64,000 bases of DNA from Streptomyces sp. NA02950 (GTDB lineage: Bacteria; Actinomycetota; Actinomycetes; Streptomycetales; Streptomycetaceae): NCBI RefSeq assembly GCF_013364155.1, contig NZ_CP054916.1, positions 5,515,001-5,579,000 on the forward strand, written 5' to 3'. A model generated the notes under the pieces. That model was not told the origin of the DNA and did not search any database. It saw only the letters and a program-made list of their open reading frames with translations. Numbering within the stretch: position 1 is the first letter of the stretch; each line of letters starts with the position of its first letter. Position numbers and translations under genes: made by a program. Below are positions 30,077 through 59,779 of this stretch, one piece after another.

Positions 30077-30088
30077 CTACGCGCGTTA
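30077..30088. promoter_or_regulatory. variant CTACGCGCGTTA operator-like site upstream of nucleoside importer
   Basis: CTACGCGCGTTA matches the CTACGCGCGTAG palindrome found before add, deoC and deoD at 10 of 12 positions. It lies 53 nt upstream of the BMP lipoprotein start, in a likely promoter region with an AT-rich stretch (GCTTTATCTGACAT) just before it. Confidence 0.6.
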
Positions 30089-30141
30089 CGATGCGGCGGA
30101 GCCAGCGCCAAAGGAGGCGCTTCGAGTCAGAGGGGACCCTC

Positions 30142-31176
30142 GTGCGCCGGGTATCCAAGATAGTTGTCGCGGGGCTTGCCACCGCGGCCCTCGCATTCTC
30201 CGCCACTGCCTGTGGCAGCAGTTCGGAATCGGAAAGCAAGGACAAGGGCGTCGGCCTGGCCTATGACGTGGGCGGCCGCGGCGACCACTCCTTCAACGAC
30301 TCCGCCGCCAAGGGTTTCGACAAGGCCAAGAAGGACTTCAAGGTCGGTGGCACCGAGCTGACGGCGAAGGACGGCGACACCGACGCCGACCGCTACGACA
30401 AGCTGGCCAGCCTCGCCGAGGAGGGCTACAACCCGGTCGTCGGCGTCGGCTACGCGTGGACCCCCTCGCTCACCAAGGCCGCCAAGAAGTACAAGGACAC
30501 CGACTTCGCGATCGTCGACTCGGTCGTCGACCTCAAGAACGTCGCCAGCCTGGTCTCCGCCGAGCACGAGGGCTCCTACCTCGCCGGTGTGGCCGCGGGC
30601 CTGAAGACCAAGTCCAACAAGGTCGGCTTCATTGGCGGCACCGACAGCGCGCTGATCAAGAAGTTCGCGGGCGGCTTCCAGCAGGGCCTGAAGGACACCA
30701 ACCCCAAGGCGTCGCTGGACGTCCAGTGGGTCCAGGTCGGCTCGGCCAAGGGCTTCGGCATGCCCGACCGCGGCAAGGACATCGCGGAGGGCATGCTCTC
30801 CAACAAGGTTGACGTGATCTTCTCGGCGGCCGGCGGCTCCGGCGCGGGCGCCATCGAGGCCACCGCCAAGAAGAAGGGCACCTGGTCGATCGGTGTCGAC
30901 GGCGACCAGTACTACGACAAGGGCCTGGCCCAGTACAAGCACACGATCATGACCTCCATGATCAAGACCGTGGACAACTCGGTCTACGACTTCATCAAGA
31001 GCGTGGTCAAGGACAAGAAGGCCGAGAGCGGCGTCCAGACCTACGACCTGAAGCGCGGCGGCGTCTCCCTCTCGTACTCCGGCGGATTCATCAACGACAT
31101 CAAGCCGAAGATCGAGGAAGCCAAGAAGAAGATCATCGACGGCAAGATCAAGGTGGCTGACACCTACAAGGACTGA
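30142..31176 (+). CDS. BMP family nucleoside-binding lipoprotein
   Basis: A 344-residue substrate-binding lipoprotein of the BmpA/PnrA family. The signal ends in the lipobox SATAC (Cys about residue 25). The mature part has VGLAYDVGGRGDHSFNDSA, ADRYDKLASLAEEGYNPVVG, DFAIVDSVVDLKN, GSYLAGVAAGLKTKSNKVGF, IFSAAGGSGAGAIEATAKK and VDGDQYYDKG, the regions that bind purine nucleosides in PnrA. It starts with GTG 30142 after GAGGGGAC. It delivers nucleosides to the ABC transporter encoded by the next three genes. Confidence 0.93.
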   Translation: MRRVSKIVVAGLATAALAFSATACGSSSESESKDKGVGLAYDVGGRGDHSFNDSAAKGFDKAKKDFKVGGTELTAKDGDTDADRYDKLASLAEEGYNPVVGVGYAWTPSLTKAAKKYKDTDFAIVDSVVDLKNVASLVSAEHEGSYLAGVAAGLKTKSNKVGFIGGTDSALIKKFAGGFQQGLKDTNPKASLDVQWVQVGSAKGFGMPDRGKDIAEGMLSNKVDVIFSAAGGSGAGAIEATAKKKGTWSIGVDGDQYYDKGLAQYKHTIMTSMIKTVDNSVYDFIKSVVKDKKAESGVQTYDLKRGGVSLSYSGGFINDIKPKIEEAKKKIIDGKIKVADTYKD

Positions 31177-31187
31177 TCACCGTCCGC

Positions 31188-31228
31188 CCACGGACCCGGG
31201 GGGACCAGCCGTCCGCCCGGGTCCGTGG
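31188..31228 (+). terminator. 12-bp hairpin between BMP and ABC ATPase genes
   Basis: CCACGGACCCGG (31188-31199) pairs with CCGGGTCCGTGG (31217-31228), with a 17-nt loop. Lying inside the operon, it may partly terminate transcription so that the abundant binding protein is made in excess over the transporter. Confidence 0.7.
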
Positions 31229-31301
31229 CACTTCCGACGCGAGCGCGCCCCCGGGCACGCTCGCGGCCGGCCCCACCGCTCTCGCCCCTCAGGAGTGCGC
31301 C

Positions 31302-32960
31302 ATCAAAGCCGCCAGCCCACCCAAGGGCGCCCCCGCCGGCGACGTCCAGGAGGACATCGCCGTAGAACTCCGCGGAATCACCAAGCGGTTCCCCGGAGTC
31401 GTCGCCAACCACGACATCGACATCACCGTGCGCCGCGGTACCGTCCACGCCCTCGTCGGCGAGAACGGTGCGGGCAAGTCGACCCTGATGAAGATCCTCT
31501 ACGGGATGCAGCGCCCGGACGAGGGCATCATCGCGATCAACGGCAAAAGGGCCGAACTGTACTCCCCGGCGGACGCGATATCCCGTGGCGTGGGCATGGT
31601 GCACCAGCACTTCATGCTGGCCGACAACTTCACCGTGCTGGAGAACGTGGTTCTCGGCGCGGAGAAGCTGCACGGCATCGGCGCCAAGGCGCGCGCCAGG
31701 ATCAAGGAGATCTCCGACGCCTACGGCCTGGGGGCCCGCCCCGACGTCCTCGTGGAGGACCTCGGCGTCGCCGACCGCCAGCGGGTGGAGATCCTCAAGG
31801 TCCTCTACCGCGGCGCCCGCACGCTGATCCTCGACGAGCCCACCGCGGTCCTCGTCCCGCAGGAGGTCGACGCGCTCTTCGACAACCTCCGCGAGCTCAA
31901 GTCCGAGGGCCTCACCGTCATCTTCATCTCCCACAAGCTGGGCGAGGTCCTCTCCGTGGCCGATGACATCACCGTCATCCGGCGCGGCACCACCGTGGCC
32001 TCCGTGGTCCCGTCCGAGACCAGCCCCCGCCAGCTCGCCGAGCTGATGGTCGGCAGTGAACTGCCCTCCCCGGAGACGCGCGAGTCCACCGTCACCGACC
32101 AGAAGATGCTGACCGTCGACGGACTGCGGCTGACCGCCACCGATGTGGACGGTGTGGAGCGCGCGGTGCTCGACGGCGTCGACCTCACCATCCACAAGGG
32201 CGAAGTCCTGGGCATCGCCGGTGTGGAGGGCAACGGCCAGGCCGAACTGGTCGAGGCCGTCATGGGCATCCGCGACCCCGACGCGGGCGCCATCACCCTC
32301 GACGGTGCCGACATCTCGCACGCCCCCACCCGCAAGCGGCGGGAGGGCGGTATCGGCTACATCCCCGAGGACCGCCACCGGCACGGCCTGCTGCTGGAGG
32401 CCCCGCTGTGGGAGAACCGCATCCTCGGCCATGTCACCGAGGCGCCCAACAGCAAGGGCGGGCTGCTCAACCCGGGCGCCGCCCGCCGCGACACCGAGCG
32501 GATCGTCACCCAGTACGACGTGCGCACCCCCGGTATCGAGGTCACCGCGGCCTCCCTGTCCGGCGGCAATCAGCAGAAGCTGATCATCGGCCGGGAGATG
32601 AGCCACCGGCCCAAGCTGCTCATCGCCGCGCACCCGACGCGTGGGGTGGACGTCGGTGCCCAGGCGCAGATCTGGGACCAGATCCGCGCCGCCCGGCGCG
32701 AGGGCCTGGCGGTACTGCTGATCTCCGCCGACCTGGACGAGCTGATCGGCCTGTCCGACACCCTGCGGGTGATGTACCGCGGCCGGCTGGTCGCCGACGC
32801 CGACCCCGCCACGATCACCCCGGAGGAGCTGGGCTCGGCCATGACCGGCGCGGCCTCCGGCCATCTCGAGGGCACGGCCGACGCCGACGTCCCGGCCGAC
32901 GACGTCCCGGCGGACGCGGCACCGGCCGACGCCGCCCCGGCTGGGGGAGAGGACCGATGA
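31302..32960 (+). CDS. nucleoside ABC transporter ATP-binding protein, apparent ATC start
   Basis: A 552-residue double-ATPase of the ribose/nucleoside type. First domain: VELRGITKRFPGVVANHDID, Walker A GENGAGKST, LILDEPTAV. Second: GVEGNGQAE, SLSGGNQQKLIIGREM and AHPTRGVDVGA. The frame is open from the previous stop, but has no ATG, GTG, TTG or CTG codon before GTG 31428, which would cut off the first beta strands. The codon at 31302 is ATC, placed 6 nt after AGGAG, and starts the sequence KAASPPKGAPAGD. So this gene appears to start at ATC, unless there is a base error. The C-terminus ends with an Asp/Ala/Pro-rich repeat tail. Confidence 0.85.
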   Translation: MKAASPPKGAPAGDVQEDIAVELRGITKRFPGVVANHDIDITVRRGTVHALVGENGAGKSTLMKILYGMQRPDEGIIAINGKRAELYSPADAISRGVGMVHQHFMLADNFTVLENVVLGAEKLHGIGAKARARIKEISDAYGLGARPDVLVEDLGVADRQRVEILKVLYRGARTLILDEPTAVLVPQEVDALFDNLRELKSEGLTVIFISHKLGEVLSVADDITVIRRGTTVASVVPSETSPRQLAELMVGSELPSPETRESTVTDQKMLTVDGLRLTATDVDGVERAVLDGVDLTIHKGEVLGIAGVEGNGQAELVEAVMGIRDPDAGAITLDGADISHAPTRKRREGGIGYIPEDRHRHGLLLEAPLWENRILGHVTEAPNSKGGLLNPGAARRDTERIVTQYDVRTPGIEVTAASLSGGNQQKLIIGREMSHRPKLLIAAHPTRGVDVGAQAQIWDQIRAARREGLAVLLISADLDELIGLSDTLRVMYRGRLVADADPATITPEELGSAMTGAASGHLEGTADADVPADDVPADAAPADAAPAGGEDR

Positions 32961-34081
32961 AGAAGTTCGACAAGGAGCGGGTGCTCCTCGCGGTCGCGGC
33001 CCCGCTGCTCGCGATCGTCAGCGCGTTCCTGCTGACCGCACTGGTGCTGGCCGCGACCGGCAAGGCGCCGTTCGACGCCTTCGGCGTGATGTTCGACTAC
33101 GGCATCAAGTCCGACAGCCAGGTCTACATCCTCAACAAGGCGACGACGTACTACCTGGCGGGTCTCGCGGTGGCCATCGGCTTCCGGATGAACCTGTTCA
33201 ACATCGGCGTCGACGGCCAGTACCGGCTGGGCGCCTTCTTCGGCGCCGCCGCCGGCGGCGCGATGGGGCTGCCGGGTCTGGTGCAGATCCCGCTGATCAT
33301 CCTGGTCGCCATGCTCGTGGGCGCGATGTGGGCGTCCATCGCCGGTCTGCTCAAGGTCTACCGCGGCGTCAGCGAGGTGATCAGCACCATCATGCTGAAC
33401 TCCCTCGGGGGCATTCTCATCAGCTATCTGCTGGTGGACGGCCGGCTGGGTGTGCTGGACAAGCAGACCAACATCGTGGCCACCAAAGCACTGCCGGAGT
33501 CCAGCCACTTCTTCACCATCCCGGCCGGTGGCGACCTGGACCCGATCTGGGGCTTCATCGTCGTCGCCGTCCTCGCCGGGGTCGGCTTCTGGTTCCTGCT
33601 GGGCCGCACCCGGTTCGGGTTCGACCTGCGCGCGGTGGGCCGCTCCGAGTCCGCCGCCGAGGCCAGCGGTGTCAACGTCAAGCGCATGGTCCTCACCAGC
33701 ATGCTGCTCTCCGGCGCGATGGCCGGTCTGATCGGCATGCCCACCGTGCTGAACGACACCCACCAGTTCACCGCCGACTTCCCCGTGGGCGTCGGCTTCA
33801 CCGGTATCGCCATCGCCCTGCTCGGCCGCAACAACCCGGTGGGTATCGGACTGGCCGCCGTGCTGTGGGGCTTCCTCGAGCGCGGTGCCAACCGCCTGGA
33901 GTTCGAGGGCTACGACAAGGAGATCGTCGGCGTGATGCAGGGCGTGATCGTCCTGTGCGTCGTCGTCGCATACGAACTGGTGCGCCGCTACGGCCTCAAG
34001 CGCCAGCAGCAGAAGGTCGGTGCGGAGCTCGCCGCCCAGGCCAAGGCCGCCAAGAGTGACAAGCAGGAGGTGCCGGCATGA
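32957..34081 (+). CDS. nucleoside ABC transporter permease
   Basis: A 374-residue membrane protein of the BPD_transp_2 family (YufP type) with about 8-9 membrane segments. Conserved stretches: FRMNLFNIGVDGQYRLGAFF, KVYRGVSEVISTIMLNSLGG and DLRAVGRSESAAEASGVNV. The last is the EAA-like coupling loop. ATGA overlaps with the ATPase stop and the next permease start. It forms half of the nucleoside channel. Confidence 0.92.
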   Translation: MKKFDKERVLLAVAAPLLAIVSAFLLTALVLAATGKAPFDAFGVMFDYGIKSDSQVYILNKATTYYLAGLAVAIGFRMNLFNIGVDGQYRLGAFFGAAAGGAMGLPGLVQIPLIILVAMLVGAMWASIAGLLKVYRGVSEVISTIMLNSLGGILISYLLVDGRLGVLDKQTNIVATKALPESSHFFTIPAGGDLDPIWGFIVVAVLAGVGFWFLLGRTRFGFDLRAVGRSESAAEASGVNVKRMVLTSMLLSGAMAGLIGMPTVLNDTHQFTADFPVGVGFTGIAIALLGRNNPVGIGLAAVLWGFLERGANRLEFEGYDKEIVGVMQGVIVLCVVVAYELVRRYGLKRQQQKVGAELAAQAKAAKSDKQEVPA

Positions 34082-35373
34082 GTGCCACGGTGACCACCAC
34101 CAAGAGCACGACCACGCCGGGCAAGGCCACGGGATCCGCCCCCCGGATGTCCCTGGCCAAGGTGCTGCTGATCGTCGCGGGCGGCCTGATCGCGCTGTCG
34201 GTGCTGCGGACCTTCGTCGACGCCGCCCAGCAGGCGGACTTCGACCGCGTCACCTCCTCCGGCCAGATCGCCGCCGCGCTGTCCATGGCCGTTCCGATCG
34301 GTCTCGCGGGCCTCGGTGGTCTGTGGGCCGAGCGGGCCGGCGTGGTCAACATCGGCCTCGAGGGCATGATGATCCTCGGCACCTTCTTCGGTGCCTGGGC
34401 CGGTTACCAGACCAACCCCTGGATGGGGGTGCTCGCGGGCGTCCTCGGCGGTGCCCTGGGCGGGGTGGTCCATGCCGTCGCCACCGTCACCTTCGGGGTG
34501 GACCACATCATCTCCGGTGTGGCGATCAACATCCTCGCCCTCGGCGCCACCACCTACCTGGCCAAGCGCTGGTTCGAACCGCTGAGCGACATCGGTGGTT
34601 CGCCCAAGCAGTCCCCGCAGGTCGACGACCTCCCGTCGTTCACCGTGCCCGGTCTGTCCGACTGGCTGTCCACCCTGGAGAACCACCACTGGTTCCTGGT
34701 CTCGGACGTCGCCGGCATCCTCGGCGGTCTGGTCACCGACATCTCGGCGCTGACCGTGCTGACCGTGGTGCTGATCATCGGCAGCTTCTTCGTCCTGTGG
34801 AAGACCTCGTTCGGACTGCGCCTGCGGTCCTGCGGTGAGAACCCGACGGCGGCCGAGTCCCTGGGCGTCAACGTCTACCTGTACAAGTACCTGGCCGTGA
34901 TCGCCTCCGGCGCCCTGGCCGGGCTCGGCGGTGTCTTCCTCGCCCTGGTCCGCTCGCACATCTACAACGAGGGCCAGACCGGCGGCCGCGGCTACATCGG
35001 CCTCGCGGCGATGCTCTTCGGCAACTGGCGGCCCGGCGGGCTGGCGATGGGCGCGGGCCTGTTCGGCTACTCCGACGCCCTCCAGCTGCGCAACGGCGGC
35101 GTGACCGTGCACGCGCTGCTCCTGCTGGTGGCACTCGGCCTCGCTGTGCTGGCGGGCTGGCGGCTCTTCCGCAAGAGTTATGTCGGAGGCGCGGTGGCCG
35201 GTGCCGGTGCGGTCCTGCTGATCGTCTGGTACCTGCTGTCGGAGACCGTCTCCAACGACCTGGTCGCCGGTACCCCGTACATCGTCACCCTGCTGGTGAT
35301 GGGCATGGCCTCACAACGGCTGCGGATGCCCAAGGCCAACAACAGGCCCTACCGGAAGGGACAGGGCACATGA
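34078..35373 (+). CDS. nucleoside ABC transporter permease
   Basis: A 431-residue permease paralogous to its neighbour (YufQ type). It has a Thr/Lys-rich cytoplasmic lead, then PIGLAGLGGLWAERAGVVNI, GVDHIISGVAINILALGATT, and the coupling loop LRSCGENPTAAESLGVNVY, plus a longer C-terminal membrane region (about residues 340-420). It overlaps both neighbours by 4 nt, so the transporter genes and cdd are tightly coupled. Confidence 0.92.
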   Translation: MSATVTTTKSTTTPGKATGSAPRMSLAKVLLIVAGGLIALSVLRTFVDAAQQADFDRVTSSGQIAAALSMAVPIGLAGLGGLWAERAGVVNIGLEGMMILGTFFGAWAGYQTNPWMGVLAGVLGGALGGVVHAVATVTFGVDHIISGVAINILALGATTYLAKRWFEPLSDIGGSPKQSPQVDDLPSFTVPGLSDWLSTLENHHWFLVSDVAGILGGLVTDISALTVLTVVLIIGSFFVLWKTSFGLRLRSCGENPTAAESLGVNVYLYKYLAVIASGALAGLGGVFLALVRSHIYNEGQTGGRGYIGLAAMLFGNWRPGGLAMGAGLFGYSDALQLRNGGVTVHALLLLVALGLAVLAGWRLFRKSYVGGAVAGAGAVLLIVWYLLSETVSNDLVAGTPYIVTLLVMGMASQRLRMPKANNRPYRKGQGT

Positions 35374-35792
35374 GCACACCCGCTGCGGCGGCTCCCGACT
35401 GGGAGTCGCTGCGCGCGGCGGCCCGGGACGCGATGTCCCGGGCCTACGCCCCGTACTCCCGCTTCCCGGTGGGCGCCGCGGCGCTCGTCGACGACGGCCG
35501 CACGGTCACCGGGTGCAATGTGGAGAACGCGGCCTACGGCGTCGCCCTGTGCGCCGAATGCGGACTGGTCTCGGCGCTCTTCGCCTCCGGCGGCGGCCGG
35601 CTGACCGCCTTCACCTGCTGCGATGCCGAGGGCGCCGTGCTGATGCCGTGCGGCCGCTGCCGCCAGCTGCTGTGGGAGCACGGTGGCCCCGGCCTCCGGA
35701 TCGACACGGCCTCCGGAATCCGCCCGCTGGCCGAGCTGCTGCCGGACGCCTTCGGCCCCGCCGACCTCGAACGCCTCGGCGCTCCGGGCTAG
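35370..35792 (+). CDS. cdd: cytidine deaminase
   Basis: A 140-residue homotetrameric-type cytidine deaminase. Active-site features: AYAPYSRFPVGAAALV, GCNVENAAYGVALCAECGLV (with the CAE zinc and proton-shuttle residues) and MPCGRCRQLLWE. It turns cytidine and deoxycytidine into uridine and deoxyuridine. It overlaps the permease gene by 4 nt, linking uptake with first catabolic step. Confidence 0.95.
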   Translation: MSTPAAAAPDWESLRAAARDAMSRAYAPYSRFPVGAAALVDDGRTVTGCNVENAAYGVALCAECGLVSALFASGGGRLTAFTCCDAEGAVLMPCGRCRQLLWEHGGPGLRIDTASGIRPLAELLPDAFGPADLERLGAPG

Positions 35793-35811
35793 GCCCGCCC
35801 CCGTCCCAGGA

Positions 35812-35839
35812 GTGCGGCCCGGCCGCCACCGGGCCGCAC
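35812..35839 (+). terminator. hairpin in cdd-deoA gap
   Basis: GTGCGGCCCGG (35812-35822) pairs with CCGGGCCGCAC (35829-35839) with a 6-nt loop. It lies between two genes of the same pathway, so it may be an attenuator or stabilise the upstream messenger RNA. Confidence 0.6.
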
Positions 35840-35905
35840 CCCCTCATTCCCCGGCGCCCCGACATCCGGCGCCCGCACCACGCGAGAAAGGGCCCGCACC
35901 TCACC

Positions 35906-37183
35906 ATGGACGCCATCTCCGTCATCCGCGCCAAGCGCGACGGCGGCCGCCTCAGCGACGGCCAGATCGACTGGATCATCGACGCCTACACCCGCGGCGA
36001 GGTCGACCCCGAGCAGATGTCCGCGCTCGCGATGGCGATCTTCCTCAACGGGATGGACCGTGCGGAGATCGCCCGCTGGACCGCCGCCATGATCGCGTCC
36101 GGTGAACGGATGGACTTCTCCTCCCTCCCGCGCCCCACCGCCGACAAGCACTCCACCGGTGGTGTCGGCGACAAGATCACCCTGCCGCTGGCGCCCCTGG
36201 TGGCCGCCTGCGGCGCCGCCGTACCGCAGCTCTCCGGCCGCGGTCTCGGCCACACCGGCGGCACCCTCGACAAGCTGGAGGCGATCCCCGGCTGGCGGGC
36301 GCTGCTGTCCAACGACGAGATGTTGGCCGTGCTGCGGGAGGTCGGCTCGGTCATCTGCGCGGCGGGCGACGGCCTCGCCCCCGCCGACAAGAAGCTCTAC
36401 GCGCTGCGCGATGTGACCGGGACGGTCGAGTCCATCCCGCTCATCGCTTCGTCGATCATGTCCAAGAAGATCGCCGAGGGCACCGGCTCGCTGGTGCTGG
36501 ATGTGAAGGTCGGCTCCGGCGCCTTCATGAAGGACATCGACGCCGCCCGGGAGCTGGCCACCACGATGGTGGGCCTGGGCACCGACCACGGGGTGCGCAC
36601 CGTCGCCCTGCTCACCGACATGTCCACCCCGCTCGGTCTGACGGCGGGCAACGCGCTCGAAGTCCGTGAATCCGTCGAGGTGCTGGCGGGCGGCGGCCCC
36701 GCCGATGTTGTCGAACTCACCCTCGCCCTGGCCCGCGAGATGCTCGACGCGGCGGGTCTGCCGGACGCCGATCCGGCCAAGGCCCTCGCGGACGGCTCCG
36801 CGATGGACCACTGGCGCCGCATGATCGCCGCCCAGGGCGGCGACCCCGACGCGGCGCTGCCGGTCGCCCGCGAGCGGCATGTGGTCCCGGCCGCCGCCGA
36901 CGGCGTGCTCACCCGTCTCGACGCCTACGCGGTCGGTGTCGCCGCCTGGCGGCTCGGCGCGGGCCGCGCCCGCAAGGAGGACCCGGTCCAGGCGGGCGCC
37001 GGGATCGAGCTCCACGCCAAGCCGGGCGAGCGCGTCACCGCCGGTCAGCCGCTGCTGACCCTGCACACCGACACACCTTCGAGGTTCGACTACGCCCTCC
37101 GGGCCCTGGACGGCGCGGTGGACTACGCCCCGGCGGACACGGCGTTCAGCGCGCCCCCGATCGTGCTGGAGCGCATCGCGTAA
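35906..37183 (+). CDS. deoA: thymidine phosphorylase
   Basis: A 425-residue pyrimidine/thymidine phosphorylase. Motifs: ADKHSTGGVGDKITLPLAPL, the family signature SGRGLGHTGGTLDKLEAIPG, LYALRDVTGTVESIPLIASS (phosphate and base contacts), SKKIAEGTGSLVLDVKVGSG and a C-terminal domain with LHAKPGERVTAGQPLLTLH. It splits thymidine or deoxyuridine into base and deoxyribose-1-phosphate. ATG 35906 is chosen as it starts the family consensus (MDAISVIRAKRDG). It ends the importer-salvage operon. Confidence 0.95.
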   Translation: MDAISVIRAKRDGGRLSDGQIDWIIDAYTRGEVDPEQMSALAMAIFLNGMDRAEIARWTAAMIASGERMDFSSLPRPTADKHSTGGVGDKITLPLAPLVAACGAAVPQLSGRGLGHTGGTLDKLEAIPGWRALLSNDEMLAVLREVGSVICAAGDGLAPADKKLYALRDVTGTVESIPLIASSIMSKKIAEGTGSLVLDVKVGSGAFMKDIDAARELATTMVGLGTDHGVRTVALLTDMSTPLGLTAGNALEVRESVEVLAGGGPADVVELTLALAREMLDAAGLPDADPAKALADGSAMDHWRRMIAAQGGDPDAALPVARERHVVPAAADGVLTRLDAYAVGVAAWRLGAGRARKEDPVQAGAGIELHAKPGERVTAGQPLLTLHTDTPSRFDYALRALDGAVDYAPADTAFSAPPIVLERIA

Positions 37184-37202
37184 CGCGGCGCACCGACAGG
37201 GA

Positions 37203-37234
37203 AGGGCCGGACGGGCAGCTGCCCGTCCGGCCCT
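37203..37234. terminator. perfect palindromic terminator after deoA
   Basis: A 32-bp perfect palindrome (centre at 37218/37219, GGGCAGCTGCCC core) lies between convergent deoA and the metalloprotease gene and can act in both directions. Confidence 0.9.
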
Positions 37235-37249
37235 CTCGGTGTGTACGCG

Positions 37250-38623: not shown

Positions 38624-39577
38624 TTAGTCGAGCAACTGACCCCTTCTGCTCAGCAGGAAGCGTTTGAAGGCCGCCACCGGCGGAGTGTCCGGATGGCCGT
38701 CCAGCCAGGCGACGCCGATCTCCCGCACCGCGCGCGGCGCGGTGACCGTCAGCTCCGCCACCCCGGGGCGCGGCACCGCCGGGGGCGGCAGCAGGGCCAC
38801 CCCGAGTCCGGCGGCCACCAGACCCCGGATGGTCTCGGCCTCCTCGCCCTCGAACGCGATCTTCGGGGTGAATCCCGCCTCGGCGCACAGCGCGTCGGTG
38901 ATACGGCGCAGCCCGTAGCCCGGTTCAAGGGTGACGAAGACCTCGGAGGCGGCCTCGGCCAGACGGATCCGGCGGCGGCCCGCCAGCCGGTGGTCGTCCG
39001 GCACCACCAGCCGCAGCCGCTGCTCGTCCAGCCGACGCGCGACGAGGTCGGGGGCGTCGGGCATGGGTGAGGTCAGACAGAGGTCGAGACCGCCCGCCCG
39101 CATCCGCTCGATCATCGCTTCGCCGTAGTTCTGGACCAGCTGGAAGCGGACCCGCGGATGGTCCACCCGGAAGGCGCGGAGCAGTCCGGGCACCGTCTCC
39201 GAGCCGAGGGTGTGCAGAAAGCCGAACGAGACGCGTCCGGCGGCGGGATCGGCGTCCGCCCGCACCGACTCGGCGGCGCGGTCCACCTCGGCGAGGGCCC
39301 GTTCGACCGAGCGCAGAAACGTCCGGCCCGCCGGGGTGAGCGCCACCGTACGGCCGCGCCGGGCGAACAGCGCGACGCCGAGGTCCTCCTCCAGCCGGAC
39401 CATCGCCCGGCTGAGCGTCGACTGCGGCACCCCGAGCTCCTGGGCGGCCCGGGTGACGTGTTCGTGGCGGGCGACGGCGGCGAACTGGGCGAGCCGCGGG
39501 GTGAGGGCCTCCGCCCAGGACTCCTCCTCCATTCCCGCTGTCACCGGAATGTCGTGTTCGTAACTGATGTGTGACAC
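38624..39577 (-). CDS. LysR family regulator
   Basis: A 317-residue LysR regulator. The winged helix-turn-helix is at about residues 28-85 (LAQFAAVARHEHVTRAAQEL, VPQSTLSRAMVRLEEDLGV), followed by a periplasmic-binding-like effector domain (FLHTLGSETVPGLLRAFRV and others). It starts with GTG at 39577 and is divergent from an MFS transporter gene, which it probably controls through the roughly 90-bp intergenic region. Confidence 0.9.
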   Translation of the reverse strand: MSHISYEHDIPVTAGMEEESWAEALTPRLAQFAAVARHEHVTRAAQELGVPQSTLSRAMVRLEEDLGVALFARRGRTVALTPAGRTFLRSVERALAEVDRAAESVRADADPAAGRVSFGFLHTLGSETVPGLLRAFRVDHPRVRFQLVQNYGEAMIERMRAGGLDLCLTSPMPDAPDLVARRLDEQRLRLVVPDDHRLAGRRRIRLAEAASEVFVTLEPGYGLRRITDALCAEAGFTPKIAFEGEEAETIRGLVAAGLGVALLPPPAVPRPGVAELTVTAPRAVREIGVAWLDGHPDTPPVAAFKRFLLSRRGQLLD

Positions 39578-42423: not shown

Positions 42424-42499
42424 TCCGACACGATCGCAGAAGGACTGGTGTACTCCACTACCCGTGCGGGTCACTGTTCCGTATCTATCCCACCCGTTC

Positions 42500-42511
42500 T
42501 ACGCGCGTAGG
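42500..42511. promoter_or_regulatory. CTACGCGCGTAG operator upstream of add
   Basis: A perfect 12-bp palindrome CTACGCGCGTAG, 15 nt before the adenosine deaminase start and 76 nt before the divergent hydrolase gene. The same palindrome occurs before deoC and deoD. Confidence 0.75.
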
Positions 42512-42526
42512 GGCTAGGCTTCGCAG

Positions 42527-50827: not shown

Positions 50828-50838
50828 GGAACACCAGT

Positions 50839-52124: not shown

Positions 52125-52355
52125 GCCATCAACGTAGCGTCCTCGTTCGTTATCCACGCCGCATTCCGGCAGACTTACCCGAACGGGTGACCGAAGCAAG
52201 CCGCTGCGGACCGCCGGTTCCTCAACTCCGAGATGCTTCACCTCCTGGAGGCCGCTCCCACCGCTCTCCGGGAATCCCGGTGACCTCCCGGGGCGGTGCC
52301 GATGCGGTCCGCGGACGCGCGGCGGCCGAAGACGGTGCGCACCGGATGCGTACCA

Positions 52356-52388
52356 GCCCCCGCCCCTCGGACGGGAGGGGGCGGGGGC
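52356..52388. terminator. terminator of the deoC-aldehyde dehydrogenase operon
   Basis: GCCCCCGCCCCTC (52356-52368) pairs with GAGGGGG plus CGGGGGC (52375-52388), with one bulged G. It lies 40 nt past the stop of the minus-strand dehydrogenase-like gene. Confidence 0.8.
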
Positions 52389-52427
52389 CGGTGGCCGTCG
52401 GGGTCAGATCCCCGTTCAGGGACCCGT

Positions 52428-53297
52428 TCAGACACCCATGGGGTGCCAGACCGTCTTGGTCTCCAGGAAGGCGAGCATCCGGCGGGTGCCGGGGTCGGCG
52501 GACCAGTCCACAGGCTGTGGACGGACGACCCGCTTCAGGTTCTCCGCCGCGGCCTTCTCCAGTTCGACCGCCAACTCCGCGTCCGCGCCCGCGAGGTCGA
52601 TCGCGTTGACGTCCTGGTGGGCGGCGAGCGGGGTGGCGATCTCCGCCGTCCTGCCGGAGAGCAGGTTCACCACGCCACCGGGGAGGTCCGAGGTGGCCAG
52701 GACCTCGGCGAGGGAGAGCGCCGGGAGCGGGCGGGTCTCGCTCGCTACGACGACCACCGTGTTACCGGTGACGATCGCGGGCGCGATGACCGAGACCAGA
52801 CCGAGGAACGAGGAGTCCTGCGGGGCCAGGACCGCGGTGACGCCGGTGGGTTCGGGGCTGGACAGGTTGAAGTACGGCCCCGCGACCGGGTTGGCGGACC
52901 CGGCGATCTGGGCGATCTTGTCGGACCAGCCCGCGTACCAGACCCAGCGGTCGATCGCCGCGTCGACCTGGGCGCCCGCCTTGGACTTGGACAGCCCTTC
53001 GGCGTCGGCGACCTCGCGGACGAACTGGTCGCGGCGTCCCTCGAGCATCTCGGCCACGCGGTAGAGGATCTGGCCGCGGTTGTAGGCCGTGGCCCCCGAC
53101 CAGCCGCCGAATGCCTTGCGGGCGGCGACAACGGCGTCACGGGCGTCCTTGCGGGACGCCTGCGGGGCGTTGGCCAGCCAGCGGTCCTTTGCGTCGGTCA
53201 CCTCGTACACCCGCCCGCTCTCGGACCGGGGGAACGTGCCCCCGACGAACAGCTTGTAGGTCTTGAGCACGGAGAGTCGGTCGTTGCGGTCAGACAT
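52428..53297 (-). CDS. aldehyde dehydrogenase-like protein without catalytic half
   Basis: A 289-residue protein that aligns with the N-terminal cofactor half of aldehyde dehydrogenases: KTYKLFVGGTFPRSESGRVY, WSGATAYNRGQILYRVAEML, DRWVWYAGWSDKIAQIAGSA and GLVSVIAPAIVTGNTVVVVA. It ends before the usual catalytic domain, so both the nucleophile Cys and the general-base Glu are absent. No frameshift is seen; the reading ends cleanly with VDWSADPGTRRMLAFLETKT. It overlaps the full-length dehydrogenase gene by 8 nt, implying a partner or regulatory subunit role. Confidence 0.85.
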   Translation of the reverse strand: MSDRNDRLSVLKTYKLFVGGTFPRSESGRVYEVTDAKDRWLANAPQASRKDARDAVVAARKAFGGWSGATAYNRGQILYRVAEMLEGRRDQFVREVADAEGLSKSKAGAQVDAAIDRWVWYAGWSDKIAQIAGSANPVAGPYFNLSSPEPTGVTAVLAPQDSSFLGLVSVIAPAIVTGNTVVVVASETRPLPALSLAEVLATSDLPGGVVNLLSGRTAEIATPLAAHQDVNAIDLAGADAELAVELEKAAAENLKRVVRPQPVDWSADPGTRRMLAFLETKTVWHPMGV

Positions 53298-54780
53298 CGA
53301 GGTATGCCTCCAGGCCGTGGCGACCGCCCTCGCGGCCGTAGCCCGACTCCTTGTAGCCGCCGAACGGCGAGGTGGGGTCGAACTTGTTGAACGTGTTGGA
53401 CCACACCACCCCGGCGCGGAGCTTGTTCGCCATCCACAGGATCCGCGAGCCCTTCTCCGTCCAGATCCCGGCGGAGAGCCCGTAGGGGGTGTTGTTGGCC
53501 TTGGCGACGGCCTCTTCCGGGGTACGGAAGGTCAGCACGGACAGCACCGGGCCGAAGATCTCCTCGCGGGCGATCCGGTGGGCCTGGGTGACCCCGGTGA
53601 ACAGCGTGGGCGCGAACCAGAAGCCGGAGCTGGGCAGTTCGCAGGCCGGTGCCCAGCGCTCGGCGCCCTCGGCCTCGCCCGCCTGGGCGAGGGAGCGGAT
53701 ACGGGCAAGCTGCTCGGCGGAGTTGATCGCGCCGACGTCGGTGTTCTTGTCCAGCGGATCGCCCACCCGCAGGGTCCGCATACGGCGCTTGAGGGCGGTG
53801 AGGAGTTCATCCTGGACGGACTCCTGGACCAGCAGGCGGGAGCCCGCGCAGCAGACATGGCCCTGGTTGAAGAAGATCCCGTTGACGATCCCCTCGACCG
53901 CCTGGTCGATCGGAGCGTCGTCGAAGACGATGTTGGCCGCCTTGCCGCCCAGTTCGAGCGTGACCTTCTTCGACGTACCGGCGACGGTGCGGGCGATGGC
54001 CTTGCCGACCTCGGTGGAGCCGGTGAAGGCCACCTTGTCGATCCCGGGGTGACCGACCAGTTCGGCGCCGGTGCTGCCGTCACCGGTGATGATGTTGACC
54101 ACGCCCTCGGGCAGCCCGGCCTGGCGGCAGATGTCCGCGAAGAACAGGGCGGAGAGGGGGGTGGTCTCGGCGGGCTTGAGCACCACCGTGTTGCCCGCGG
54201 CGAGGGCCGGGGCGATCTTCCACGCCAGCATCAGCAGCGGGAAGTTCCACGGGATGACCTGACCCGCCACGCCCAGGGGCTTGGGGTCGGGACCGCTCGT
54301 GCCGCTCAGCGGGCTCCGCCCGCGGACGGCGTGGGCCAGCTTGTCGGCCCAGCCCGCGTAGTAGAAGAAGTGCGCCGCGACCAGGGGGAGGTCGGCGTCC
54401 CGCGACTCGCGGATCGGCTTGCCGTTGTCCAGCGACTCCAGGACGGCCAGCTCGCGGGAGCGCTCCTGGATGATGCGGGCGATCCGGAACAGGTACTTGG
54501 CGCGCTCGGAGCCCGGGAGGGCGGACCAGGCCGTGAAGGCGGCGCGGGCGGCCTTGACGGCGCGGTCGACGTCCTCGGCGGTGGCCTGGGCGACCTCGGA
54601 GAGCACCTCCTCGGAGGAGGGCGAGATGGTCTTGAAGACCTTGCCGTCGGCGGCCTCGGTGAACTCGCCGTTGATGAACAGCCCGTAGGCGGGGGCGATG
54701 TCGACGACGGCGCGGGACTCGGGCGCCGGTGCGTAGTCGAAGGGCCCGGGGGCGGGGGTCATGGGTGTCGTGGGTGCCAT
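53290..54780 (-). CDS. aldehyde dehydrogenase
   Basis: A 496-residue NAD(P)-dependent aldehyde dehydrogenase of full length. It shows the cofactor loop FTGSTEVGKAIART, the general base in LELGGKAANIVFDD and the catalytic Cys in NQGHVCCAGSRLLVQ, plus EEIFGPVLSVLTF. Lying 7 nt after deoC, which releases acetaldehyde from deoxyribose-5-phosphate, it probably oxidises acetaldehyde to acetate. It begins with MAPTTPMTPAPGPFDYAPAP and overlaps the next gene. Confidence 0.92.
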   Translation of the reverse strand: MAPTTPMTPAPGPFDYAPAPESRAVVDIAPAYGLFINGEFTEAADGKVFKTISPSSEEVLSEVAQATAEDVDRAVKAARAAFTAWSALPGSERAKYLFRIARIIQERSRELAVLESLDNGKPIRESRDADLPLVAAHFFYYAGWADKLAHAVRGRSPLSGTSGPDPKPLGVAGQVIPWNFPLLMLAWKIAPALAAGNTVVLKPAETTPLSALFFADICRQAGLPEGVVNIITGDGSTGAELVGHPGIDKVAFTGSTEVGKAIARTVAGTSKKVTLELGGKAANIVFDDAPIDQAVEGIVNGIFFNQGHVCCAGSRLLVQESVQDELLTALKRRMRTLRVGDPLDKNTDVGAINSAEQLARIRSLAQAGEAEGAERWAPACELPSSGFWFAPTLFTGVTQAHRIAREEIFGPVLSVLTFRTPEEAVAKANNTPYGLSAGIWTEKGSRILWMANKLRAGVVWSNTFNKFDPTSPFGGYKESGYGREGGRHGLEAYLDV

Positions 54781-54787
54781 GGGTGTC

Positions 54788-55792
54788 TCAGTCCACCGTC
54801 ACGTAGTCGGGGCCGGAGTAGTGGCCGGTGCGCAGCTTCTGGCGCTGCATCAGCAGGTCGTTGAGCAGGCTGGAGGCGCCGAAGCGGAACCAGTCGGCCG
54901 TCAGCCACTCGTTGCCCAGCGTCTCGTTGACCATCACCAGGTACTTGATCGCGTCCTTGGAGGTGCGGATACCGCCCGCGGGCTTGACCCCGACCTGGAC
55001 GCCGGTGGTGTCGCGGAAGTCGCGCACGGCCTCGAGCATGAGGAGGGTGACCGGCGGGGTCGCGTTCACCGTCACCTTGCCGGTGGAGGTCTTGATGAAG
55101 TCGGCCCCGGCCAGCATCGCCAGCCAGGACGCCCGGCGCACGTTGTCGTACGTCTGGAGCTCACCGGTCTCGAAGATGACCTTCAGGTGGGCGGCGCTGC
55201 CGTCCGGGCGGGCGCACGCCTCCTTCACCTGCTTGATCTCCTCGAAGACGTCCAGGTAGCGGCCGGACAGGAAGGCGCCGCGGTCGATCACCATGTCGAT
55301 CTCGTCCGCCCCGGCGGCCACCGCGTCCCGGGTGTCGGCCAGCTTCACCGGCATCGCGGCGCGGCCGGAGGGGAAGGCGGTGGCGACGGCGGCGACGTGG
55401 ATGCCGCTCCCGCCGGCGGCGGCCAGCGCCTCCTTGGCGGTCGCCACCATGTCGCCATAGACGCAGATCGCCGCGACCTTGGGGACCGTACGGTCCGTGG
55501 GGTCGGGGCTGACCCCCTTCGCGCACAGCGCCCGGACCTTGCCCGGGGTGTCCGCGCCCTCCAGGGTCGTCAGATCGATCATCGAGATCGCCAGGTCGAT
55601 GGCGTAGGCCTTCGCCGTGGTCTTGATCGAGCGGGTGCCGAGGGTCGCGGCACGGGCCTGGAGGCCGACCGCGTCGACGCCCGGCAGGCCGTGCAGGAAG
55701 CGGCGCAGCGCGCCGTCCGAGGCGGTCACGTCCGCCATGGACGCGAGTCGCTCCGCGGCCTCTTTGCCGTATGCGGGAACTGTGGTGGGCAT
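54788..55792 (-). CDS. deoC: deoxyribose-phosphate aldolase
   Basis: A 334-residue DeoC, class I aldolase. Catalytic Lys in GADFIKTSTGKVTVNA; AICVYGDMVATAKEALAAAG, ADEIDMVIDRGAFLSGRY and VGVKPAGGIRTSKDAIKYL are typical. It cleaves deoxyribose-5-phosphate to acetaldehyde and glyceraldehyde-3-phosphate. The N-terminal extension of about 60 residues is usual for the longer actinobacterial form. The start ATG is at 55792; a CTACGCGCGTAG palindrome lies 19 nt upstream. Confidence 0.95.
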   Translation of the reverse strand: MPTTVPAYGKEAAERLASMADVTASDGALRRFLHGLPGVDAVGLQARAATLGTRSIKTTAKAYAIDLAISMIDLTTLEGADTPGKVRALCAKGVSPDPTDRTVPKVAAICVYGDMVATAKEALAAAGGSGIHVAAVATAFPSGRAAMPVKLADTRDAVAAGADEIDMVIDRGAFLSGRYLDVFEEIKQVKEACARPDGSAAHLKVIFETGELQTYDNVRRASWLAMLAGADFIKTSTGKVTVNATPPVTLLMLEAVRDFRDTTGVQVGVKPAGGIRTSKDAIKYLVMVNETLGNEWLTADWFRFGASSLLNDLLMQRQKLRTGHYSGPDYVTVD

Positions 55793-55811
55793 GGTCACCA
55801 GACGAGCATAT

Positions 55812-55823
55812 CTACGCGCGTAG
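55812..55823. promoter_or_regulatory. CTACGCGCGTAG operator upstream of deoC
   Basis: Perfect copy of the 12-bp palindrome, 19 nt before deoC and about 105 nt before the divergent PH-domain gene. Confidence 0.75.
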
Positions 55824-55928
55824 CAGATGTCACCCCCGGGGTGGGGATCTGTTGGGCCGGGGAACCGGGTTCGGTGGGCCTCGGCTCCGGCATCCATTGT
55901 CGCCGAGGCGTGGTGCAGAATCGGCCCC

Positions 55929-56597: not shown

Positions 56598-56612
56598 GGC
56601 CGGTGACGTCGG

Positions 56613-56644
56613 ACCGGGGCGGCCGCTGGTGCGGCCGCCCCGGT
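56613..56644. terminator. bidirectional terminator with T-rich tail
   Basis: ACCGGGGCGGCCGC (56613-56626) pairs perfectly with GCGGCCGCCCCGGT (56631-56644), loop TGGT, followed by TCTTTGGTTGTT. The PH gene and the mutase gene converge here. Confidence 0.9.
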
Positions 56645-56655
56645 TCTTTGGTTGT

Positions 56656-58359
56656 TCAGATGCCCGCCGCCGTCGCGAGGTCCGTCCTGAGCGACGCCAG
56701 CGCCGTCTCCGCCGTCGTACGGGCCGTGGCCAGCGCGTCCGCCCCGGGGACGTCCACCACCACCTCCAGGTAGCACTTCAGCTTCGGCTCGGTGCCGCTC
56801 GGGCGGACGATCACCCGGGCCGAGCGGATCGTTCCGTCGCCGGAGAGGTGGTAGCGCAGACCGTCCGTCGGGGGGAGGGTCTCGGTGCCCCGGGCCAGAT
56901 CGTCCGTCGACCTCACGGCCAGGCCCGCCAGTACGGTCGGCGGCTGTTCGCGCAGCCGCTTCATCGCCGTGGCGATCACGGAGAGGTCCTCCACGCGTAC
57001 GGACAACTGGTCGGTCGCGTGCAGACCGTGCGCGAGCGCGATGTCGTCCAGGAGGTCGGAGAGGGTGCGGCCCTGTTCCTTCAGCTCCGACGTCAGCTCC
57101 GCGATCAGCAGCGCGGCCGTGATGCCGTCCTTGTCGCGCACGCCGTCCGGGTCCACGCAGTAGCCGAGCGCCTCCTCGAAGGCGTAGCGCAGGCCGTCCA
57201 CCCGCGCGAGCCACTTGAAGCCGGTCAGCGTCTCGGCGTACGCCAGGCCGGCGGCGGCCGCGATCCGGGAGAGGAGCGAGGACGAGACGATCGTCGTCGC
57301 GACGGTGCCGTGGGCCCGCTTGTGCACCAGGTGCGTGGCGAGCAGCGCGCCGACCTCGTCGCCGCGCAGCATGCGCCAGCCGTGGGCCGGGGGCGCTCCG
57401 GCGGGGGTCGGTACGGCTACCGCGCAGCGGTCGGCGTCCGGGTCGTTGGCGATGACGACGTCCACGGCGTCGGGGCCGGCGGTGGGGTCGGTGGTGGCAC
57501 CCAGGTCTCTGGCGGTGGCGAACGCCAGGTCCATCGCGCCCGGCTCCTCCGGGTTCGGGAACGCGACGGTCGGGAACGCCGGGTCGGGGTCGGCCTGTGC
57601 GGCGACCACGGTCGGGGCCGGGAAGCCCGCGCGGGCGAAGGCGGCGGTGAGGGTGTCGCGGCCGACCCCGTGCATCGGGGTGTAGACGACGCGGGCGGTG
57701 CGGGGGGAGCCGGGGGTGAGGACGGCGTCGGTGCGGGCGAGGTACGCGTCCAGGACGTCGTCGCCCAGCGTCTCCCAGCCACTGTCCGGGCGGGGGACGT
57801 CGTTGAGGCTGCCGATCGCGGCGATTGCGGTGGCGATGTCGGTGTCGGCGGGCGGGACGATCTGGGAGCCGTCGCCGAGGTAGACCTTGTAGCCGTTGTC
57901 GCGGGGCGGGTTGTGGCTCGCGGTGACCTCGATGCCCGCGACGGCGCCGAGGTGGCGGATGGCGAAGGCCAGGACGGGGGTGGGGAGGGGGCGGGGGAGC
58001 AGGGCGGCGCGGAAGCCGGCGCCGGTCATGACGGCGGCGGTGTCGCGGGCGAAGTCGGCGCTCTTGTAGCGGGCGTCGTAGCCGATGACGACGAGGCCGC
58101 CCCGGGTGGTGTCCTGCTGGGCGAGGTAGGCCGCGAGGCCCGCGGCGGCGCGGATGACGACGGCGCGGTTCATGCGCATGGGGCCGGCGCCGAGCTCACC
58201 GCGGAGACCGGCGGTGCCGAACTGGAGGGTGCCGGAGAAGCGGTCCGCGATCTCGTCGAGCGCCTCGGTGCGCAGCAGTTCGCTGAGTTCGGCGCGGGTG
58301 TCGGGGTCGGGGTCCTCGGCGAGCCAGGTGCGGGCCTGGGTGATGAGGACGGGCTCCAT
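56656..58359 (-). CDS. phospho-sugar mutase (phosphopentomutase/phosphomannomutase-like)
   Basis: A 567-residue alpha-D-phosphohexomutase-superfamily enzyme of the PGM2 kind. It contains GTAGLRGELGAGPMRMNR, the phospho-Ser loop GIEVTASHNPPRDNGYKVYL, the metal loop IANDPDADRCAVAV, and the sugar loop FEEALGYCVDPDGVRDKDGI. Its neighbour deoD and the M. tuberculosis deoD-pmmB pair suggest it interconverts (deoxy)ribose-1- and 5-phosphates. The start is ATG at 58359. Confidence 0.88.
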   Translation of the reverse strand: MEPVLITQARTWLAEDPDPDTRAELSELLRTEALDEIADRFSGTLQFGTAGLRGELGAGPMRMNRAVVIRAAAGLAAYLAQQDTTRGGLVVIGYDARYKSADFARDTAAVMTGAGFRAALLPRPLPTPVLAFAIRHLGAVAGIEVTASHNPPRDNGYKVYLGDGSQIVPPADTDIATAIAAIGSLNDVPRPDSGWETLGDDVLDAYLARTDAVLTPGSPRTARVVYTPMHGVGRDTLTAAFARAGFPAPTVVAAQADPDPAFPTVAFPNPEEPGAMDLAFATARDLGATTDPTAGPDAVDVVIANDPDADRCAVAVPTPAGAPPAHGWRMLRGDEVGALLATHLVHKRAHGTVATTIVSSSLLSRIAAAAGLAYAETLTGFKWLARVDGLRYAFEEALGYCVDPDGVRDKDGITAALLIAELTSELKEQGRTLSDLLDDIALAHGLHATDQLSVRVEDLSVIATAMKRLREQPPTVLAGLAVRSTDDLARGTETLPPTDGLRYHLSGDGTIRSARVIVRPSGTEPKLKCYLEVVVDVPGADALATARTTAETALASLRTDLATAAGI

Positions 58360-58599
58360 GGGGTCTCCTGGGGCTGGCTGGCTGGCTGGCTGGGTGGGTG
58401 GGTGCGTGGGTGGTGGGGGGTGGGTGCGGGGGTGTGTGGGCGGGTGCGGGGCCGGGGGCTCCGGTGTGGGGTCCTGGACCGTCTATTTAGGCGCCGGTGC
58501 CCGGGGAGGTCTGGTCACCCGGAGATTGGCGCCACAAATACACGTAGTGTCCAGGACCCCACCCCTGCGCCCCCGTCCCCTCCCGTCTCGTCGGCGGCC

Positions 58600-58793
58600 G
58601 CGCCTCCGGTGGCCGGTTCGGGATGCTGGTCTTGGCTTTGGCGCTGCCCTCGGTGGCGGGGCCGGGCGACTGTGCCGCGGTGGGTTGTCGGTGGGCGCTC
58701 CTGCGGTGGCTGGTTCGGGATGCTGGTCTTGGCTTTGGCGCTGCCCCCGGTGGCGGGGCCGGGCGACTGTGCCGCGGTGGGTCGTCCGTCCGG
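58600..58793. repeat. 97-bp tandem direct repeat, two copies
   Basis: The unit with GGTTCGGGATGCTGGTCTTG at 58615 recurs at 58712. From there 72 bases are identical except for one change (TCGG to CCGG), and the flanks are also similar, giving about two copies of a 97-bp tandem unit. Confidence 0.85.
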
Positions 58794-58861
58794 GGTGCTT
58801 GTCCCCGGAGGGGCCGTGCCCCTCGGTTGAGCTCTGGGTACCCGCCGGAGGCGAGCTGACG

Positions 58862-58903
58862 CCGGGCGGCGGGTCCCCGGGGTGGGGCCCGCCCGCCGCC
58901 CGG
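58862..58903 (-). terminator. terminator after deoD
   Basis: CCGGGCGGCGGG (58862-58873) pairs with CCCGCCGCCCGG (58892-58903), beginning 18 nt downstream of the minus-strand deoD stop. Confidence 0.8.
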
Positions 58904-58920
58904 TCGCCCGACCGGCGAGG

Positions 58921-59742
58921 TCACACGCGGTCGAGGACCTTGGCCAGGAGGCTGCCCATACGGGCGGCGGAGTCGCGGCCCGCCTGGAGGACCTCCTCGT
59001 GGTTCAGGGGTTCGCCCGTCATGCCCGCGGCGAGGTTGGTGACCAGGGAGATGCCCAGGACCTCCGCGCCCGCCTCACGGGCGGCGATCGCCTCGAGGGT
59101 GGTGGACATGCCGACGAGGTCCGCGCCGATGGTGCGGGCCATACGGATCTCGGCCGGGGTCTCGTAGTGCGGGCCGGGGAACTGCGCGTAGACGCCCTCC
59201 TCGAGGGTGGGGTCGATCTGCTGGCAGAGCGCGCGCAGCCGGGGTGAGTACAGGTCCGTGAGGTCGACGAAGTTGGCGCCGATGATCGGGGAGCTGGCGG
59301 TGAGGTTGATGTGGTCGCTGATCAGTACCGGCTGGCCGGGGCGCATACCGTCGCGGAGGCCGCCGCAGCCGTTGGTGAGGACGATGGTCTTGCAGCCGGC
59401 GGCGACGGCGGTGCGGACGCCGTGTGCGACGGCGGCGACACCGCGGCCCTCGTAGAAGTGCGTGCGGCCGAGGAAGACCAGAACCCGCTTGTTGTTGATC
59501 TTGTACGAGCGGATCGTGCCCGCATGGCCCTCGACGGCGGGCGGCGGAAAGGCGGGCAGCTCGGTGACGGGGAACTCGTGGTCCGGCGTTCCGAGTGCGT
59601 CGGTGGCGGGGACCCAGCCGGAGCCCAGGACCAGGGCGACGTCGTGGGTCTCCGCGCCGGTCAGCTCGCGCAGGCGCGCGGCGGCGGCGTCGGCGGCGGC
59701 GTGGGGGTCGCCCTGGCTGTCCCAAGTAACTGATGCGTTCAC
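58921..59742 (-). CDS. deoD: purine nucleoside phosphorylase (trimeric type)
   Basis: A 273-residue PNP of the trimeric class. Motifs: [30 protein letters not shown] (phosphate site), [52 protein letters not shown] and LVTNLAAGM. It splits inosine and guanosine (and deoxy forms) to base and pentose-1-phosphate, used by the adjacent mutase. The GTG at 59742 has a weak ribosome site. A CTACGCGCGTAG palindrome is 25 nt upstream. Confidence 0.93.
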
Positions 59743-59767
59743 GCGGTCGAGAGTAGCCGCTTACTGC

Positions 59768-59779
59768 CTACGCGCGTAG
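59768..59779. promoter_or_regulatory. CTACGCGCGTAG operator upstream of deoD
   Basis: Perfect 12-bp palindrome, 25 nt before the PNP start codon; same sequence as sites at 42500 and 55812. Confidence 0.75.

Follow-up and report, generated by a model that had tools for sequence, protein, structure and literature searches.

A palindrome before nucleoside salvage genes of Streptomyces is very probably the operator of the LacI-family regulator encoded beside glnR

A 64,000-nucleotide (nt) stretch of the Streptomyces sp. NA02950 genome (contig NZ_CP054916.1, positions 5,515,001 to 5,579,000; here called the window) contains several units for the uptake and breakdown of nucleosides, including a transporter unit, add, deoC, and deoD (Table 1). 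In the transporter unit, the open reading frames (ORFs) that follow the first gene have Pfam matches to ABC_tran, BPD_transp_2 (two ORFs), cytidine deaminase, and pyrimidine nucleoside phosphorylase. A 12-bp palindrome, CTACGCGCGTAG, stands just upstream of add, deoC, and deoD. On the basis of comparative sequence analysis, we propose that it is very probably the core of a 14- to 16-bp operator, composed of the half-sites (A)TCTACGC and GCGTAGA(T) meeting at its center, for a LacI-family regulator of nucleoside salvage of the SCO4158 type.

Table 1. Operator copies, putative promoter hexamers, and genes discussed in the text; positions are those of the window, except for the lacI gene
Feature	Position	Strand	Remarks
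Degenerate operator upstream of BMP lipoprotein gene	30077-30088	+	10/12 match to CTACGCGCGTAG
BMP/PnrA-type substrate-binding lipoprotein gene	30142-31176	+	Pfam Bmp, 186 bits
ABC transporter-cdd-deoA unit	30142-37183	+	BMP gene first
LysR-like gene	38624-39532		by eye
Exact operator, CTACGCGCGTAG	42499-42510	+	16 nt before add ATG (42527)
Putative add -10-like hexamer, TAGGCT	42515-42520	+	operator ends 4 nt upstream
add, adenosine deaminase	42527-43693	+	Pfam A_deaminase, 351 bits; NCBIfam equivalog, 637 (cut-off 412)
Aldehyde dehydrogenase gene	53290-54762		25 nt after deoC; Pfam Aldedh
deoC, deoxyribose-phosphate aldolase	54788-55792	-	NCBIfam TIGR00126, 174 bits (cut-off 117)
Putative deoC -10-like hexamer, TATGCT	55810-55805	-	operator ends 1 nt upstream
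Exact operator, CTACGCGCGTAG	55812-55823	-	19 nt before deoC ATG (55792)
Phosphomutase gene	56656-58359	-	strand of deoD, 561 nt further on; Pfam PGM_PMM
deoD, purine nucleoside phosphorylase	58921-59742	-	NCBIfam TIGR01698, 340 bits (cut-off 302.6)
Putative deoD -10-like hexamer, TACTCT	59755-59750	-	operator ends 12 nt upstream
Exact operator, CTACGCGCGTAG	59768-59779	-	25 nt before deoD GTG (59742)
DeoR-family regulator gene	61978-62931	+	Pfam HTH_DeoR and DeoRC
Candidate lacI gene	G000:C1:4208628-4209644	-	directly downstream of glnR, 1.3 Mb from the window

The palindrome occurs exactly three times in the 9.77-Mb genome, every time inside the window and before add, deoC, or deoD, whereas the reversed control pattern is absent from the genome and 100 dinucleotide shuffles produced no copy. 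An earlier, sequence-only reading of the window had called for this genome-wide search and had judged that an exact 12-mer placed three times just before such starts was very unlikely to arise by chance, a judgment that these counts bear out. Its positions of 55812 and 59768 and its gaps of 19 nt to deoC and 25 nt to deoD stand, but the add copy begins at 42499 rather than 42500 and ends 16 rather than 15 nt before the start codon. It had also listed the 10/12 match upstream of the BMP gene; that match exists, but by itself it is no commoner than chance, as the window holds five matches with up to two mismatches (the three exact ones counted) against 3.75 expected, and the whole genome holds 238. 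The site has a complete left half-site, TCTACGCGCG, its right half is merged with a -10-like TACGAT (30087-30092), and it differs from TCTACGCGCGTAGA at 3 of 14 positions. Between 31160 and 31440, before the transporter ATPase gene, there is no operator (best match, 8/14); the half-site precedes the BMP gene instead. The palindrome might in principle be a promoter element, a methylation site, or a GC-rich repeat that arose by chance and has no regulator of its own, as its closeness to -10-like hexamers and its GCGCGC run would allow, but three copies in a genome of this size before linked genes, the rarity of the reversed control, and conservation across the family make this exceedingly unlikely.

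The putative -10-like hexamers lie 6 nt (add), 7 nt (deoD), and 12 nt (deoC) from the start codons, and the spacing at add and deoD is as expected for leaderless transcripts. A repressor bound at such a position would be expected to block RNA polymerase. We envisage that a LacI dimer would occupy the DNA immediately before the -10 element in these short-leader or leaderless promoters and that its hold on the DNA would be altered by a purine or nucleoside signal, with the salvage genes opening together. Its core targets would be nucleoside uptake, add, deoD, and the deoC-aldehyde dehydrogenase pair; certain species might add purSQL, purN, a second adenosine deaminase gene, and genes for nucleases or nucleotidases.

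Absence of the site from other Streptomyces had been named in the sequence-only reading as the observation that would speak against it; instead, exact copies are present in all 61 Streptomyces genomes surveyed (2 to 6 copies each) and in every one of the 101 Streptomycetaceae genomes sampled, which span 16 genera (1 to 6 copies each), with the reversed control at 0 to 3 per genome in both sets. In a class-level sample of 296 genomes, all 31 Streptomyces genomes carried 2 to 6 copies, and 10 of the 265 others carried any, nine of them a single copy and one (G133) three. Those single copies outside the family that were inspected by eye (L071 to L077) had no recognizable nucleoside gene behind them.

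We then described the flanks of 128 distinct exact copies from the family, a nonrandom set consisting of the first-listed site of many genomes plus hand-picked extras. A total of 117 copies lie at eleven kinds of genes, a figure to be read as a description rather than as an independent test, since the labels came from reference genes taken out of these same contexts; 105 copies are at nucleoside or purine genes. The targets were deoD (34 copies), adenosine deaminase genes (32, comprising 23 at add and 9 at a second paralogue, where site and start region overlap), the gene for the ATPase of the nucleoside-type transporter (23), deoC (10), a gene whose secreted product has Ig-like and carbohydrate-binding domains (9), purN (4), a HAD hydrolase gene (2), and purS, a 5'-nucleotidase/mshD intergenic region, and an opp-type binding protein gene (1 each). 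The other 11 copies lie in different contexts, two of them inside a gene without a nearby start. Site-to-start distances are narrowly distributed, at 24 to 25 nt in 31 of 34 deoD cases and 15 to 16 nt in 13 of 23 add cases. The conserved sites at these genes lend good support to the proposal of the sequence-only reading that import, deamination, phosphorolysis, and deoxyribose cleavage are under one shared regulator. At the secreted protein gene, the exact operator lies 37 to 49 nt upstream in L124, L188, L190 to L192, L194, L196, L199, and L204. Several genomes of the sister genus g117 encode a second close LacI paralogue (61 to 64% identity), and g117 genomes have additional operator copies upstream of purN and of the gene for the secreted protein.

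A regulon wider than add, deoC, deoD, and the transporter is plausible. The NA02950 genome holds ten one-mismatch sites, of which five are at purS, a CN_hydrolase gene (beta-ureidopropionase type, by eye), two genes for metallophosphatase/5'-nucleotidase-domain proteins (with one domain score, from the incomplete piece L009, slightly below the cut-off), and a gene for a GmrSD_C nuclease-like protein, whose site falls within the called N terminus. The remaining five are found at rpoB, an opp-type binding protein gene, two unknown genes, and one coding region; the rpoB site, CTACGCGCGTAC (L007), lies 29 nt upstream of the called start. A three-mismatch site was also found 44 nt before the gene of an Exo_endo_phos-like protein, which scored below the Pfam cut-off. 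The purS site is known from two species, with one mismatch in NA02950 and exact in G174, and 40 tiles of 20 kb placed at guessed distances from lacI in ten further genomes contained no purS. Searches of the NA02950 genome with the 16-mer (up to three mismatches) and the 14-mer (one mismatch) returned many intragenic matches and few new promoters. The reversed control did at least as well (31 against 37 and 46 against 13), so that weak single sites prove nothing.

The sequence-only reading had allowed that the regulator might be encoded outside the window, and the evidence favors the LacI-family protein encoded beside glnR. LacI genes numbered 17 in NA02950, 16 in G008, and 5 in G373, a family member with a 5.4-Mb genome, and among those read (13, 12, and 5, respectively) the glnR-adjacent protein was the single one found in common. 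No other LacI protein was common to the three genomes among the loci read, five of the 30 having been compared by eye only. The glnR-adjacent LacI is present in 101 of 101 Streptomycetaceae genomes at at least 68% identity and, in the class sample, in all 31 Streptomyces genomes at at least 84%, the best match in any other genome being 46%; its recognition helix, TSTAVVSYV, is identical in all 55 family copies read. The NA02950 protein carries the LacI helix-turn-helix domain PF00356 (56.5 bits; cut-off, 27) and, over its full length, a PurR/LacI-type core that aligns at length with the solved structures of CcpA, RbsR, and PurR (best E value, 2.3e-47), and it fell short of the NCBIfam equivalog cut-offs for PurR (176.5 against 501), CytR (163 against 436), UriR (116.9 against 550), and RbsR (186 against 382 and 166.5 against 531). 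Passages of PMC4052901 describe LacI operators as mostly even palindromes with a central CG. The operator in the target promoters is likewise an even palindrome with a central CG. From these features and the pairings below, we infer that the protein binds the palindrome and represses its targets.

Related LacI genes in other taxa are accompanied by the same type of palindrome. We examined 13 loci from other families and 33 from named records (L364 to L396); leaving out L394 to L396 (helix KSLVSLV, no site) and keeping the Streptomyces paralogue L369 gave 43 loci. The pattern TC[AT]A..CG..T[AT]GA, fixed after the first 13 loci, is present in 11 of these and in 25 of the next 30 (25 of 33 if L394 to L396 are counted). 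Across all 43 loci, 36 carry the pattern, with 43 matches in 391,994 bases against 0.43 expected from a first-order Markov control (never more than 2 per run in 30 runs). There is no match in 27 loci around other LacI genes (81,913 bases). The strict form TCTA..CG..TAGA occurs seven times in the first 13 loci and not once in 100 dinucleotide shuffles, and in the 38 high-GC loci, all 37 matches fall outside called genes. A BLAST comparison with tested references placed a nucleoside-type gene in 24 of the 43 loci, encoding nucleoside hydrolase (13 loci), ribokinase-type kinase (10), a xanthine dehydrogenase-like protein (3), adenosine deaminase (1), or BMP (1).

The pairing extends to enterobacteria, where the exact 12-mer precedes the first start codon of a transporter ORF by 132 nt in Serratia bockelmannii, 178 nt in Pantoea allii, and 73 nt in Providencia rettgeri, followed in each case by the transporter gene (MFS_1 in Serratia; by eye in Pantoea and Providencia), lacI, and a nucleoside hydrolase gene. 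In two Xenorhabdus loci (L387 and L390), the operator has one change and lacI lies beside a transporter gene, and in Rothia santali, the exact 12-mer is upstream of a PfkB-family kinase gene and lacI. The presence of a Streptomyces-type operator at enterobacterial lacI genes suggests possible transfer between phyla. The helix GTSVAVVSYV is shared by the Pantoea, Serratia, Providencia, and Xenorhabdus loci (L381, L384, L389, L387, and L390). In loci L368, L380, and L391 (Pseudonocardia, a Nocardioidaceae metagenome-assembled genome, and Amycolatopsis), lacI is divergent from molybdenum-type xanthine dehydrogenase-like genes, and a TCAAC..TAGA palindrome lies between them.

Helix and operator also appear to have changed together, with helix residue 17 covarying with operator base 5. 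Half-sites read TCTA in 34 of 34 cases with Thr17 and TCAA in 21 of 24 with Pro17; Glu17 goes with TCAA (4/4), and Val17 goes with TCTA in 19 cases and TCAA in 5. Fisher's test of Thr17 versus Pro17 gave p = 6e-13, a value that is too strong, as the loci are related. A contact between position 17 and base 5, counted from the operator center, agrees with classical lac repressor genetics. The palindrome might instead be bound by a family-specific regulator of another kind (TetR, GntR, LysR, or other), with the LacI link a coincidence of the shared pathway; our comparison covered LacI proteins only, and both a LysR-like gene in the window and a PucR-like gene before the L005 carbon-nitrogen hydrolase gene (by eye) offer such candidates. 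This is very unlikely, given the residue-base covariation, the lack of sites in the control loci, and the presence of the exact 12-mer next to enterobacterial LacI homologues. The TetR-family, ppGpp-responsive XdhR came into question through its connection with purines but was set aside on its targets as described in passages of PMC6627660, the xdh and act genes.

Several observations weigh against the LacI assignment. First, a DeoR-family gene lies near deoD in seven of the eight family regions read, the eighth having ended too early, and the sequence-only reading had put forward the DeoR-family protein of the window, which it placed at 61942, as a candidate. E. coli DeoR acts on the same pathway genes, deoC and deoD, although it belongs to a different family from LacI. 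The gene in the window is 2.2 kb from deoD, and its product carries HTH_DeoR and DeoRC domains, but among NCBIfam models the product matches AgaR and GlpR best (both below their cut-offs), the E. coli DeoR model gives a score of 69 where 244 is the cut-off, and in other genera the matching palindrome adjoins lacI genes. Its own promoter has no site with up to two mismatches; the sequence-only reading had likewise noted that the site is lacking there. Further, the even palindrome with a central CG is the LacI format (passages of PMC4052901). We therefore do not favor this candidate and regard it as improbable that the DeoR-family protein is the repressor that binds the palindrome. In the Crossiella loci L365 and L367, a DeoR-family gene whose product has an N terminus similar to that of the DeoR-family protein in the window lies about 3 kb from lacI.

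The remaining points concern the LacI loci and the sites. The palindrome is absent from 7 of the 43 related loci, and these loci are not independent (several are Arthrobacter-type, two each are from Crossiella and Xenorhabdus, and two are Jiangella-like). Nineteen of the 43 have no nucleoside-type gene in the stretch covered; of these, nine carry a gene for a Gfo/Idh-type oxidoreductase, in most cases together with sugar-type ABC genes, and ten have neither type, so that the subfamily is not purely devoted to nucleosides. The proposed assignment of the regulator is unaffected by such loci, because it rests on site and helix. In the nine Gfo/Idh-adjacent loci (L271, L276, L279, L372, L374, L375, L378, L379, and L382), TCTA..CG..TAGA occurs in eight. 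Another family's genome, G133, has three exact 12-mers, none in a clear nucleoside promoter; its LacI has the identical helix, and the gene lies between two of the 12-mers, 15 to 16 kb from each. The five NA02950 one-mismatch sites at rpoB, the opp-type binding protein gene, and elsewhere may be due to chance. Lastly, the lacI promoter has one conserved half-site, GCGTAGA, in 44 of 47 named loci, overlapping a -10-like TAGACT, which makes for a weak case for autoregulation.

As to how the LacI protein might respond to its signal, we lean slightly toward a repressor for which a purine nucleoside, or one of its products, would be the releasing inducer, because the neighborhoods of homologues elsewhere are catabolic. 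A variant of the same assignment is a PurR-like mode, in which purine bases would act as corepressors that tighten binding and turn off salvage and de novo synthesis together. It is favored by the sites at purS and purN in some species and by the rank of PurR and RbsR among the nearest relatives that are solved or curated, but many homologues outside the family look like local repressors of catabolism, encoded next to nucleoside hydrolase and ribokinase-type genes, and the PurR model score is far below its cut-off; we consider it possible but the less probable mode. In the effector domain, the residue three positions before the G of the GW/GF motif is His in all 39 readable family copies (16 were unreadable), while in 11 homologues it is Arg in 9 and His in 2; the ligand may therefore differ from that of the homologues.

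The proposed system resembles known ones in part. E. coli CytR regulates nucleoside uptake and catabolism, and its operator and CRP dependence do not match the present system. CytR is likewise a LacI-family protein that controls deo-type, deaminase, and nucleoside uptake genes, but the glnR-adjacent LacI is no orthologue of it by the NCBIfam cut-off. The operator of E. coli PurR also differs from the present one. PurR shares the LacI family and, in some species, purine genes among the sites, but most sites described here are at salvage or catabolic genes, and the score is again too low. According to passages of PMC4052901, CytR responds to cytidine and adenosine, PurR is a purine repressor with guanine and hypoxanthine as corepressors, and UriR of corynebacteria, AdeR, and HpxR are LacI-family nucleoside regulators that are called local; LacI-family control of nucleoside genes is thus already known. 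The last three are alike in this control, but the sites described here are spread over the genome, and the UriR model is far from matched. In enterobacteria, the counterpart could be AdeR or HpxR.

Meng 2012 is said to have reported effects of SCO4158 on antibiotic pigments. By its gene neighborhood, the same glnR neighborhood in both species, the LacI protein is almost certainly SCO4158 of S. coelicolor. Passages of PMC9739823 describe SCO4158 as a LacI regulator downstream of glnR that might regulate glnR, SCO4158 and SCO4920 (the type of the DeoR-family protein in the window) appear together in the regulator list of a glucose repression study (passages of PMC4848846), and a candidate ArgR site has been placed before SCO4158 (passages of PMC5839063). 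The literature passages that name SCO4158 give no target or operator for it, and the 12-mer itself appears in papers on DNA structure and on GapR. No link of SCO4158 or the operator to these genes was found in the searchable literature, which leaves out most subscription journals and RegPrecise; RegPrecise may hold part of the finding.

Streptomyces recycle much of their DNA and RNA as the mycelium dies before sporulation. Tentatively, and as a possibility that we rate somewhat short of even, this one LacI protein may be a master regulator of the nucleic acid economy in Streptomycetaceae, merging the roles of E. coli PurR, CytR, and DeoR, with an equally tentative scope that would begin with nucleases and nucleotidases, take in the import, deamination, and phosphorolysis of nucleosides, and end with the de novo purine steps of purSQL and purN. 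If so, the adjacency to glnR could connect nitrogen supply and development with the reuse of DNA that dying hyphae release. The signals ppGpp and c-di-GMP, which are linked to antibiotic production, are fed by purine metabolism (passages of PMC6627660). The shared operator and candidate regulator make the control of nucleic acid recycling directly testable, propose a function for the conserved LacI beside glnR, and provide a case of a matched change in helix residue and operator base. Within the window, the region between deoD and the phosphomutase gene (58360-58920) contains, by eye, two copies of a repeated GGTTCGGGATGCTGGTCTTGGCTTTGGCGCTGCCC stretch.

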